A DNA stretch of 64,000 nt from Steroidobacter denitrificans (GTDB taxonomy: Bacteria > Pseudomonadota > Gammaproteobacteria > Steroidobacterales > Steroidobacteraceae). The notes under the pieces are model-generated. The model saw only the letters and a program-made list of their open reading frames with translations, searched no databases and had not been told where the DNA came from. Below, in pieces: positions 20,781 through 62,698 of the stretch; positions within the stretch are counted from its first letter, which is position 1; each line of letters begins with the position of its first letter. Location: positions 2,444,001-2,508,000 of the forward strand of contig NZ_CP011971.1 in the NCBI RefSeq assembly GCF_001579945.1, read 5' to 3'. The translations under genes were made by a program, and so were the position numbers.

Positions 20781-21863
20781 TCAGGCTGCCTCTCCGGCGC
20801 GACGCGGACTTCCGCGACGACGACGCTGCACCGCCAGAGCCAGCCGTTCGAGCACCTGGACGGAGCTGTCCCAGTCGATGCAGCCGTCCGTGATGCTCTG
20901 GCCATAGCGCAACGGCTGCCCGGGACACAGATCCTGGCGACCGGCGACCAGATGACTTTCCACCATGACTCCGGCGATGCGCTGTTCACCGGCCTCGACC
21001 TGGCGCGCCACCTCGTCGATGACGGCGGGCTGATTCTCGGGCTGTTTGCGGCTGTTGCCATGGCTGACGTCGATCATGATCCGAGGCGGCAAACCCGCTC
21101 CCACGAGCGAGGTACACACGCTCTGCACGCTCTGCGGATCATAGTTCGGCGCCTTGCCGCCGCGCAGGATCACATGACAGTCCGTATTGCCCGCCGTACT
21201 GGCGATGGCGCTGCGCCCCTGCTTGGTAACGGCCAGGAAATGATGGGCATGCGAGGCCGCCTGAACGGCATCGATCGCGATCTTGACGTTGCCGTCCGTG
21301 CCGTTCTTGAAGCCCACGGGACAGGACAGGCCGGAGACCAACTCGCGATGCACCTGACTTTCCGTGGTGCGCGCTCCGATCGCGCCCCAGCTGACCAGAT
21401 CGGCGATGTACTGCGGCGTGATCATGTCCAGAAACTCGCAGCCGGCCGGAAGCCCCATCCGGTTGATATCCACCAGCAGCCCGCGCGCCAGGCTCAGTCC
21501 CTTGTTGATATTGAAACTGCCGTCCAGATCCGGATCATTGATCAGCCCCTTCCAGCCGACGGTGGTGCGCGGCTTCTCGAAATACACCCTCATGATGATC
21601 TCGAGCGTATCTCCCAATCGATCACGCTGTTCCTTGAGGCGGCCGGCGTAGTCGCGCGCGGCGGCGACATCATGGATCGAGCAGGGGCCGATGACGACCG
21701 CGAGGCGGTCATCGCGTGCATGCAGGATATCCTGCAGCGCGCGCCGCCCCCGGTCCACCGTGGCCGAGGCGTCCTCGACACAGGCATGTTCACGCATCAA
21801 TGTTTCAGGGGTGCTGAGCTCCCTGATGTCGCTGATTCGAAGATCGTCGGTGCGAATTGTCAC
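20781..21863 (-). CDS. aroG: 3-deoxy-7-phosphoheptulonate (DAHP) synthase, class I
   Basis: A 360-residue AroF/AroG/AroH-type enzyme condensing phosphoenolpyruvate with erythrose 4-phosphate, the first step of the shikimate pathway. Conserved blocks include VVIGPCSIHD, YFEKPRTTVGWKGLINDP, GARTTESQVHRELVSGLS, GFKNGTDG and MIDVSHGNS. The start is a GTG at 21863 with GGAG five bases upstream. Which aromatic amino acid inhibits it cannot be told, so the symbol is generic. Its upstream region carries a leader peptide and terminator that look like an attenuator (separate entries). Confidence 0.9.
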   Translation of the reverse strand: MTIRTDDLRISDIRELSTPETLMREHACVEDASATVDRGRRALQDILHARDDRLAVVIGPCSIHDVAAARDYAGRLKEQRDRLGDTLEIIMRVYFEKPRTTVGWKGLINDPDLDGSFNINKGLSLARGLLVDINRMGLPAGCEFLDMITPQYIADLVSWGAIGARTTESQVHRELVSGLSCPVGFKNGTDGNVKIAIDAVQAASHAHHFLAVTKQGRSAIASTAGNTDCHVILRGGKAPNYDPQSVQSVCTSLVGAGLPPRIMIDVSHGNSRKQPENQPAVIDEVARQVEAGEQRIAGVMVESHLVAGRQDLCPGQPLRYGQSITDGCIDWDSSVQVLERLALAVQRRRRGSPRRAGEAA

Positions 21864-21904
21864 AATGGCTCCGGTTGTTTGCCTTGTCTACCTTCGCCGG
21901 GGCC

Positions 21905-21932
21905 AAAAAAAACCGCCAGCGGAGGCGGTTTT
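21905..21932 (-). terminator. Intrinsic terminator between leader peptide and DAHP synthase
   Basis: On the minus strand a perfect 9-bp stem (AAAACCGCC / GGCGGTTTT) with a 6-base loop ends in eight consecutive Ts. It stands 42 bases upstream of the DAHP synthase GTG and 30 bases after the stop of the aromatic-rich leader ORF, the position expected for an attenuator. It would also stop read-through from tamB. Confidence 0.85.
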
Positions 21933-21961
21933 CCTGGGAATGCTTGCTTGTTACTGGATCT

Positions 21962-22042
21962 TCAGATCGAGTGCAGCCCCGGCTCCGCCCTTGAGGGGAA
22001 GGCCCAATACGTAAAAAAATAATAGCGGCTGGACGCGATCAT
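21962..22042 (-). CDS. Leader peptide of a putative DAHP synthase attenuator
   Basis: A 26-codon ORF (ATG at 22042, TGA at 21962-21964) lies in the gap between tamB and the DAHP synthase gene. Residues 7-15 read YYFFTYWAF: three Tyr, three Phe and one Trp in nine codons, exactly the end products of the pathway. The terminator begins 30 bases after its stop. The segment GGCGGAG near the end of the ORF can pair with CTCCGC or CCGCC in the 5' arm and loop of the terminator, giving a candidate antiterminator. No normal ribosome site precedes the ATG (GGGAG is about 21 bases away), so initiation may be weak or from a near-leaderless transcript. Not computationally folded. Confidence 0.7.
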   Translation of the reverse strand: MIASSRYYFFTYWAFPSRAEPGLHSI

Positions 22043-22054
22043 GGTGGAATAAGA

Positions 22055-22082
22055 AATATCACACTCTCCCGGTCGAATACAA
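22055..22082 (-). promoter_or_regulatory. Possible promoter for the leader-DAHP synthase transcript
   Basis: On the minus strand TTGTAT (22082-22077) and GATATT (22060-22055) are separated by 16 bases, each four of six matches to the sigma-70 consensus. A start about seven bases downstream would place the leader ATG very near the 5' end of the RNA. Confidence 0.35.
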
Positions 22083-22113: not shown

Positions 22114-25100
22114 TCATTTCTCGAGCCGATACTCGATCCCGGCGCGAGTTTCGCTCGAACCCCGAGCCGTCTGTACCGATAGTGCCTCGGTGAGCCGGTA
22201 ACGCAAGGTGATGACTTCGCCGGGATCGAACAGACCCACGCCATAGCTCAGGTACAGCCTGGGCGACAGATACTGGCCCACCGTGAAGGTGGCTCCACCC
22301 ACCATGTCGTTACTTTCGATGCCGACCTCATCGAGGCCCAGCCGGCCGCCAATGCTTTTGGCCAGCAGGCCTCCACCCGCCGTACCGATCGAGCGTGCGG
22401 CGCTATGCAAGGCGTCGGCATCCCCCTCGCTACTGCCGATCCGCTCCAACGGCCGCCCCGTGACCAGATAGGCCAGCGCCTCGGACTGGGTCATGACAGG
22501 GTCGGAAAACACGGACAGCTGGGGACTGCGGGCGGTGCCTTCCACCTTCAAGCCGGCGGTGACCTGCTCCACCTTGCGCACGGCAACGATATTGAGTCCG
22601 GGATCATCGAGCGGTGTGCTGGCGAACAACAGCTGTCCGCGCTGAATGCTCAAATCCTGTCCGTAGGCCTTGTAGGCTCCCTCGACCTTGATATTGCCGG
22701 TGCCGACCGTCGGCGAGTCGGGACGCTCCTGAATGTTCAGCCGGCCGCCTACCCTGGCATCGAGACCGAATCCGGCGAGTTTCACCGCATCGCCCAGGAT
22801 GATCGTGATGTCGGCCTGCAGCGGCACCGCCTGTGCCTCCTGTACGGCATCTTCATCATCGAGCACCACCACATCCGGTGAGGCCCGCCGGCCGCCGGCA
22901 CCCCCTGCAGGAAGCTTGCTCAGATCCACATCGGCGCGGGGAATACTCACTTCACCGCTCAGGCGCATGCGCTGCTCGTCACGCTCGAAGGCCAGCTCCG
23001 GCGCCACGATGACATGTGCCGCGGGAATGTCGGCGGCCAGGAAATCCCGGCCCTTCACGTTCGCCTGGATCCGCCCCTCGGGCGTCAGGCGCCCGGTGAA
23101 TGCCAAGGTGCCCGTTCCTGAATGGATCTCCCCGTCGAGGCTGATCACGCCCTCCGTATCCGGAGTGGCGGATACCCTGCCATCGGTGAGCTTCAGCCCC
23201 AGCTCGGGAATCTGAGCCGCCAGCTCGCTGGCCTGTAGTTCGCCGCTCAGCCGCGGCGCTTCCAGCGTCCCCGCGACGCTGGCACGCAAATCGACGCGTC
23301 CCGCGACCTCCGCAAGCTGGGGGATGAATGCCGCCAGCGGCGACAGGCTGGGAATCGACACGAACAACTCGCCATCGAGTTCCGATGTCGGCTGTTCCAA
23401 TCCCCGCAGCCAAACACGGCCCTCAAGTCTCCCGTCCTCCGATGGACGGTCCTGCGCAACCTCCCCCAGGCGTCCGGAGAGCGTCGCCCGCGCCTCGGCA
23501 CCGGTCAGTTCGGCCTGGAGCCGCAGTTGCGCATATTCCAGCAGCGTCTCCCCGGCCGGTGCGTCCGGCGGCGTTTGGGCCGGGGTGATCCTGCCGCCGG
23601 GCAGTTCGATGCCGGCCTGCCCGAACAGTTCGCCCTGCGCCGTGCGCCGCAACTCGCCGCGGCCTTCGATCGTGCCGCTCACAGCCACCGGCAGCGCCGG
23701 CACCAGCGCATTGGCGAGCGCCAGCCGCAATCCTTCCAGGGCATAGCTCGCCTGCAGAACGCCATCCGCCTGCCGGGTCAGTGCCGCGCAAAACCGCATT
23801 TCATCGCCGGACAGGCAGGTCTGCCGCAGCTCCATGGCGCCCTGTGCGTCGATCTCGAGCGCCGCCGGCGCCTCCAGCGACAGGCGCGCCACTTCGGGAA
23901 CCGTCAGCTGCAATCGTTCGATCGAGCCGGACCAGCCGGCCTCGGACTGTGTACCCCTCATTTCCAGATCGGTGTTCAGACGCTCGCCCAAGGCCGTCAA
24001 GGTCAGCCGATGCATCTCCTGGTCGCCATCCACCCGCAACTGCAGGCTGCCGAACTCGAATCCCGCCGCGCCGACGCCGGACAGATCGAGGCGCACCTGA
24101 CCGGAAGGCTTCGAGACATTCCGGACCTGGAGCTGCAGATCGAGCGCGTCGCTGCGCAGCTGCGCCAGTTGCAGCGCCTGGCTTTGCGCCGCCACCTCCA
24201 GATCCAGTGCCGGCCAGGTGCCACGCACCTCGGCGCGGGCACGCAGGCGACCCCGGGCGCCCGGCATCCAGTCATCGAGGCTGCACACATCCAGCTGCGC
24301 ACTGGCCTCCAGGGTACCCGCTCCTCCCGCGGGCGCGGCATGCAGATCGATACGGCTGTCGCCGGAACGCAGCGCCACACGGCCCCTGAGAGTCGGCTGC
24401 CCGGCAGCGCCCAGACCGCTGAAATCCATGTCGGCGCGCCCTTCGACCGGGCGGTCGCGCAAACGTCCGCGCAGGTTGCGCAGCACCAGAGTACCGTCTG
24501 CGCCCCGTTCACCCATGCGCCCTTCGGTATCGAGCTGGAAACTCACCCGCCCCGGCCAGTCGGCCGCCAGCGCACCGGGATCGAAGGTTTTCGCCGCCGC
24601 GGCGAGGTGCCAGCCGATCACCGGCTTCAGTGCCACCCGCCCCAGGGCCGTGAGTTCACCGGCGGATTGTCGCAGCGCGAGCTCCTTGACCTCGATCGCA
24701 GCATTGCTGCCCGTCACATCGAGCGCGATATCGACCGGAGCGCGGGGCGGGCCGATCTGCAACTGTCCCAGCGCCGTATAGGCATCCATATTGCCACGCA
24801 CCTGCAGCCGTCCCCGGCTGTGCAGCTGCTGCCCGGCCCAGCGCGCGGGAATCTGCAGATCCTGCCAATCCACCTCGGCGCTCACCCGGAGCGCCGGCGC
24901 GGATGACAGCACGCCGCGCACCACCAGGGTTCCAGCCGCGGGCGAACCCTCGGTATCCTCGGCCCCGGCATCCCCGGTTCCAGGCCCCTCGGCTTCGGCA
25001 TCCTCGGTTCCAGAGTCCCCGGCTTCGGAATCTTCGCCTCCGGAACTCCCGCCTAGGAAAATCTTCAAGGGATCCAGGGTGATCTCGTCTTCATCGCGTG

Positions 25101-51260: not shown

Positions 51261-51336
51261 GCCGGAGTAGCTCAGCTGGTAGAGCAGCGCATTCGTAATG
51301 CGCGGGTCGGGAGTTCGAGTCTCTTCTCCGGCACCA
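51261..51336 (+). tRNA. tRNA-Thr (anticodon CGT)
   Basis: A full cloverleaf of 76 bases including an encoded CCA. The 7-bp acceptor stem is GCCGGAG/CTCCGGC, the D arm is GCTC-AGCTGGTA-GAGC, and the anticodon stem GCGCA/TGCGC encloses the loop TTCGTAA. The T loop is TTCGAGT. Anticodon CGT reads ACG. An intrinsic terminator follows at once. Confidence 0.97.

Positions 51337-62621: not shown

Positions 62622-62698
<77 letters not shown>

Follow-up and report, generated by a model that had tools for sequence, protein, structure and literature searches.

In Steroidobacter denitrificans, the aroG gene for type I DAHP synthase is preceded by a short open reading frame carrying a block of Phe, Tyr and Trp codons and by an intrinsic terminator, a leader-terminator architecture that is conserved far above chance. 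Judged from sequence, the best explanation of this architecture, to which we assign a probability of about 0.9, is ribosome-mediated transcription attenuation of aroG by the charging of Phe and Tyr tRNAs, with or without that of Trp tRNA. Three features of this attenuator class are present, namely a run of codons for end products, an intrinsic terminator between the leader and the biosynthetic gene and, by computation, an antiterminator.

The aroG leader region

The window, by which we mean the whole stretch of 64,000 nucleotides that was analysed, comes from a genome of 3,467,246 bp in one contig. aroG occupies positions 20781 to 21863 on the minus strand, starts with GTG at 21863 and encodes 360 amino acids; in a protein family search, the enzyme matched TIGR00034 aroFGH (1.4e-157; 524 bits, cut-off 173) and NF006723 AroG (1.1e-163; 544 bits, under that family's own 568-bit cut-off). 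Because the genome also encodes a type II DAHP synthase outside the window (PF01474, 626 bits; G000:C1:1788813-1790120, locus L185), the attenuator would govern one of two entry enzymes. No aromatic leader was found upstream of the type II gene, and none that was convincing before the two chorismate-binding (trpE/pabB-like) genes or pheA of the same genome.

The leader peptide ORF (MIASSRYYFFTYWAFPSRAEPGLHSI), recognized as an open reading frame and by its conservation, covers positions 21962 to 22042 on the minus strand with 26 codons followed by TGA, and has no Shine-Dalgarno sequence. Its residues 7 to 15, YYFFTYWAF (21998 to 22024), are the putative control codons and correspond to the core codons of the leaders in relatives. 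The frame stays open in the 5' direction as far as an ATG at 22117 (51 amino acids); we favor 22042 as the true start because of the conservation, the promoter position and the leader length in relatives. The intrinsic terminator (21905 to 21932, minus strand) consists of AAAACCGCC (region 3), the loop TCCGCT and GGCGGTTTT (region 4) followed by TTTT. Its nine perfect base pairs (21932 to 21909) begin 29 nucleotides 3' of the leader stop, and the run of eight Ts extends to 21905, from where 41 nucleotides lead to the aroG GTG. The first-pass annotation had described this ORF, with its aromatic residues, and the succession of hairpin, T tract and DAHP synthase start correctly. A generic promoter and terminator scan of the window returned nothing here; the hairpin probably escaped it owing to the continuation of the stem into the T tract. 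The whole-leader fold of the single window sequence showed no unusual stability (z = -0.71), a value that is uninformative as evidence.

A promoter for the leader is predicted at 22055 to 22082 on the minus strand, with TTGTAT as the -35 element (22082 to 22077), a 16-nucleotide spacer and the extended -10 element TGT-GATATT (22060 to 22055). It is a weak match to the consensus, with a homologous -10 element in relatives. The window -10 hexamer ends 12 nucleotides before the leader ATG, which predicts a 5' untranslated region of about 5 nucleotides. In 41 of 85 loci, the distance between the end of the best -10 hexamer, often TGTGYTATCAA, and the leader ATG is 6-8 nucleotides, where about 5 loci would be expected at a random position; in the Burkholderia and Massilia relatives it instead lies some 25-40 nucleotides upstream. 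A Shine-Dalgarno-like site precedes only 3 of the 85 leaders versus 77 of the 85 aroG genes. With the -10 element so close to the ATG and Shine-Dalgarno sequences missing, many of these leaders are probably leaderless, or nearly so, at their predicted transcription starts.

The position of the leader ORF before aroG in the same orientation could also mean that it couples translation to aroG, through re-initiation or sequestration of the aroG Shine-Dalgarno sequence. We consider such translational control very improbable, as an intrinsic terminator with its U tract stands between the two reading frames, the leader stop lies about 98 nucleotides from the aroG start in the window, and aroG has its own Shine-Dalgarno sequence downstream of the hairpin (GGAG at 21869 to 21872 in the window, separate from the terminator).

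Conservation of the leader and its codons

An aromatic-rich ORF, defined as one with at least five Phe, Tyr or Trp residues in ten, was present in 86 of 102 aroG upstream regions, that of the window included. The same definition was reached by chance in 59 of 2040 dinucleotide shuffles (3%) and in 27 of 3562 control windows (0.8%) taken from these loci. The window leader has seven aromatic residues in ten, and none of 2000 dinucleotide shuffles of its 300-nucleotide upstream region reached at least that number. The first-pass annotation had staked its attenuator proposal on conservation in relatives, and this was borne out: the leader ORF, the terminator and the antiterminator copy are kept with aroG in alpha-, beta- and gammaproteobacteria.

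Several loci that first scored negative carry aromatic leaders on inspection. Three of these leaders (AYWYF in L017, TYWYF in L069 and RYFAFHF in L072) fall below the cut-off or are changed in frame, and a fourth, in Candidatus Burkholderia humilis (L062), has an FYFYF leader with a later frameshift. Two further negatives (L026, L068) are truncated contigs. Clear absence of the leader among close homologues, at about 60% identity or more, is confined to four MAG loci (L022, L024, L059, L070), which have neither leader nor terminator and whose enzymes are 65-71% identical. None of eight type I DAHP synthases that belong to the same order but are more distant, at 50-55% identity (L099-L106), was found to have the leader. 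The Candidatus Burkholderia humilis leader lies about 180 nucleotides upstream of aroG and loses its frame after KFYFYF, with the terminator and region 2 retained, an apparent decay of aroG control in an endosymbiont.

Phe, Tyr or Trp accounts for 540 of the 551 core codons beginning with T in 80 distinct leaders, and the Leu, Ser and Cys codons that begin with T are nearly absent; the block is therefore not a mere consequence of U-richness. At loci with GC3 above 0.8, the ratio of TTT to TTC is 150:35 in the leaders versus 17:334 in the adjoining aroG genes. This pattern in the sequences indicates that codon-level selection acts on the aromatic block of the leader. Phe codons occur in 84 of 84 leaders and Tyr codons in all but one, and Trp codons occur in 63, being missing from the leaders of Alcaligenaceae and most of those of Oxalobacteraceae. 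The earlier suggestion that one leader mixes all three aromatic residues thus holds for Phe and Tyr, with Trp as an optional member.

A covariance model of the element scored the window site at E = 1.8e-15 and found no second copy in the same genome, all other matches there having E values of at least 0.29. Across the 398 genomes of the phylum searched, a DAHP synthase gene follows each of the 30 best matches and also the further inspected matches down to about 1e-8, among them a group that had no part in the training set and has leaders such as MSSRIAFDFFYFWFSVPGGREASA. Matches weaker than about 1e-8 were not counted as members, since leaders of pheA, pheST and trpE (the genes confirmed by protein families) and bare terminators appear below that level. 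The putative attenuator was found in Xanthomonadales, Burkholderiales, Devosia, Bradyrhizobium and other groups. At two loci (L157 and L159, in genomes G391 and G411), pheA has a Phe-rich leader, of which MKIFNTRFLFGFFFIPPL is one example. The L157 P-protein carries a fused DAHP synthase domain of the B. subtilis type, and the Phe leader there may govern a DAHP synthase activity too.

At the element, neither the window nor any of 20 relatives gave a match above the threshold of an Rfam family. RF01859 (Phe_leader) scored 17.5 bits in the window against a gathering threshold of 55, essentially on the terminator part, with no match in the 20 relatives. The only Rfam matches at gathering level within the window are tRNA genes at 51261-51333 (plus strand) and 62625-62698 (minus strand). 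Strong conservation of the leader RNA and terminator would also be expected if the terminated RNA were under non-ribosomal control, by a metabolite riboswitch or a TRAP-like protein, with the ORF incidental. We give this explanation hardly any weight, given that the conserved upstream part consists of codons, the stability of the whole-leader fold is ordinary and no Rfam family matches.

Alternative RNA pairings and the proposed mechanism

The aroG loci share a terminator core of the form [A/G]CCGCCAG-loop-CTGGCGG[C/T]. In an alignment of 54 sequences, the terminator helix is 93.8% paired and covaries, with 28 double-change cells, mainly exchanges between AU and GC at a single pair (20 GC/AU compensatory exchanges). 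Within the leader itself, the sequence of the terminator 3' arm occurs once more, as a third copy that is usually CTGGCGG, is translated as P-L-A-E and is complementary to the 5' arm. This region 2, the 5' strand of the candidate antiterminator, is CTGGCGGA in most relatives versus GGGCGGAG in the window (21983 to 21990, minus strand).

The helix of regions 2 and 3 is 77.6% paired, compared with 16-53% when the strands are slid against one another, and it has 18 double-change cells versus 8.9 expected from shuffles; because most core pairs hardly vary, the covariation support is moderate. In 48 of the 84 loci, the window among them, its duplex energy is better than that of shuffled leaders (p<=0.05). 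In folds computed with a ribosome occupying the control codons and before the 3' arm exists, the 5' arm CCGCC paired with the leader in all 84 cases, as against 391 of 860 with shuffled leaders. In addition, GGCGG is retained in four loci where its reading frame differs (L086, L089, L095, L098), and this persistence across frame shifts suggests that selection acts on the RNA and not on the end of the peptide. Computed in these ways, the leader copy and the terminator 5' arm constitute a predicted antiterminator that is mutually exclusive with the terminator.

In the window, the complementarity of GGCGGAG in the leader to the terminator 5' arm and loop, as noted in the first-pass annotation, gave a best duplex of -18.3 kcal/mol versus a shuffle mean of -12.1 (p=0.025). 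Across loci, the antiterminator proposed there takes the form of the conserved third copy of the terminator 3' arm; in this genome, the element is degenerate compared with relatives, with AAGGGCGGAG opposite ACCGCCTCCGC. Despite this degeneracy, the window antiterminator folds as predicted prior to the appearance of the 3' arm. Even when a stalled ribosome is in place, the terminator remains the fold favored at equilibrium, and the switch must therefore be kinetic, as it is in classic attenuators. A local hairpin of regions 1 and 2 is predicted in the window; as a protector or pause hairpin it is unsupported, being no more stable across loci than shuffles (mean z +0.23). Nor was there support for a region 1 located 5' of the aromatic block, with a partner at p<=0.05 in only 9 of 84 loci.

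Because the leader lies directly 3' of tamB, a gene of the same strand with its end at 22114, the hairpin could be taken merely as the 3' terminator of tamB and the ORF as a chance product of a U-rich tract, but this explanation, with scarcely any probability left to it, is largely refuted by the absence of a TamB homologue from the fetched flank of every other relative locus, where leader and terminator travel with aroG, by codon conservation beyond U-richness, and by the conserved antiterminator complementarity and promoter just before the leader.

For attenuation by tRNA charging, we infer that the leader is translated, that ribosomes stall on it and that the co-transcriptional switch responds to amino acids in the following manner. 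RNA polymerase would start at the leader ATG or a few nucleotides before it, and a ribosome would load on the 5' end that lacks a Shine-Dalgarno sequence. With charged Phe, Tyr and Trp tRNAs plentiful, the ribosome would pass the aromatic codons and reach the stop, allowing the terminator (regions 3 and 4) to form before aroG. Under-charging of one of these tRNAs would stall the ribosome in the YYFFTYWAF block and free region 2 (GGGCGGAG), about 10 nucleotides past the last aromatic codon, to pair with newly made region 3. This pairing would precede synthesis of the 3' arm, so that no terminator would form and aroG would be transcribed. Across loci, the median distance from the last aromatic codon to region 2 is 10 nucleotides, which fits a stalled ribosome that just fails to cover region 2.

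Relation to known attenuators

Leaders that respond to several amino acids are familiar from the ilv and thr operons, and control of the aromatic entry step in E. coli is the textbook case of TyrR/TrpR repression.

Attenuators of DAHP synthase genes have already been reported. The closest is aroR-aroF of C. glutamicum, in which an aromatic leader peptide (Phe-Tyr-Phe) precedes the DAHP synthase gene and stalling raises transcription; it is described as responsive to Phe and not to Tyr (Neshat et al. 2014 as described in PMC11802643; PMC4046766). It is actinobacterial, the descriptions of it give an FYF leader and mention no Trp, and the likeness drawn from them is functional. In Acholeplasma, the uORFC-13-1 motif upstream of aroF was predicted from 24 sequences with at least one Phe codon (PMC8632094), and shares with the present element a predicted upstream ORF, a terminator and a DAHP synthase gene; its lineage is unrelated and no mixed aromatic block is described for it. 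Putative aroF/aroH leaders were predicted in Shewanella (PMC2659441), and attenuation-type control was proposed for the Vibrio DAHPS-tyrA operon (PMC1173090) and, as cited in PMC8632094 and PMC2659441, for E. coli aroF (Camakaris 1980). These are predictions or hypotheses without the mixed Phe/Tyr/Trp leader and CCGCCAG/CTGGCGG architecture.

Among the other attenuators, pheL-pheA and pheM-pheST (RF01859) resemble the aroG element in their run of aromatic (Phe) codons and intrinsic terminator, and appear among the weaker covariance-model matches, but have other target genes and mainly Phe codons. The ORF of rhizobial trpL (rnTrpL) is leaderless and starts at the AUG of the transcript (PMC10117765), a leaderless start being probable for many of the aroG leaders too, and a leader before trpE (MNIGNWWWARFARP) is a weak covariance-model match. 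It differs in having Trp codons only and controlling trpE(G), and a trans-acting RNA and peptide are known for the rhizobial system. By extension, a single leaderless mRNA start might act as a sensor of all three aromatic amino acids by summing the charging of Phe, Tyr and Trp tRNAs, and might be the ancestral default by which aroG is controlled in lineages other than the enteric one with TyrR/TrpR, with the terminated RNA of about 140 nucleotides or its peptide acting in trans on other aromatic genes as in rhizobial rnTrpL; we regard this as unlikely.

Our literature search found no description of the proteobacterial aroG leader presented here, and subscription papers (e.g., Lopatovskaya 2010, Vitreschak 2004) could contain one. 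The attenuator reading of the first-pass annotation is supported by conservation, and the C. glutamicum and Acholeplasma systems make the leader less novel than that reading implied. The proteobacterial aroG leader is a new and widespread addition to a long-known type of switch, distinguished by its mixed Phe/Tyr/Trp block and, likely, by its leaderless start, and it is absent from Rfam. A conserved attenuator implies that much of the phylum would control the aromatic entry step by tRNA charging and not by TyrR/TrpR repression. The leader also predicts the amino-acid specificity of each clade, Phe and Tyr versus Phe, Tyr and Trp, and would lend itself as a target for the deregulation of shikimate flux in laboratory and industrial strains.
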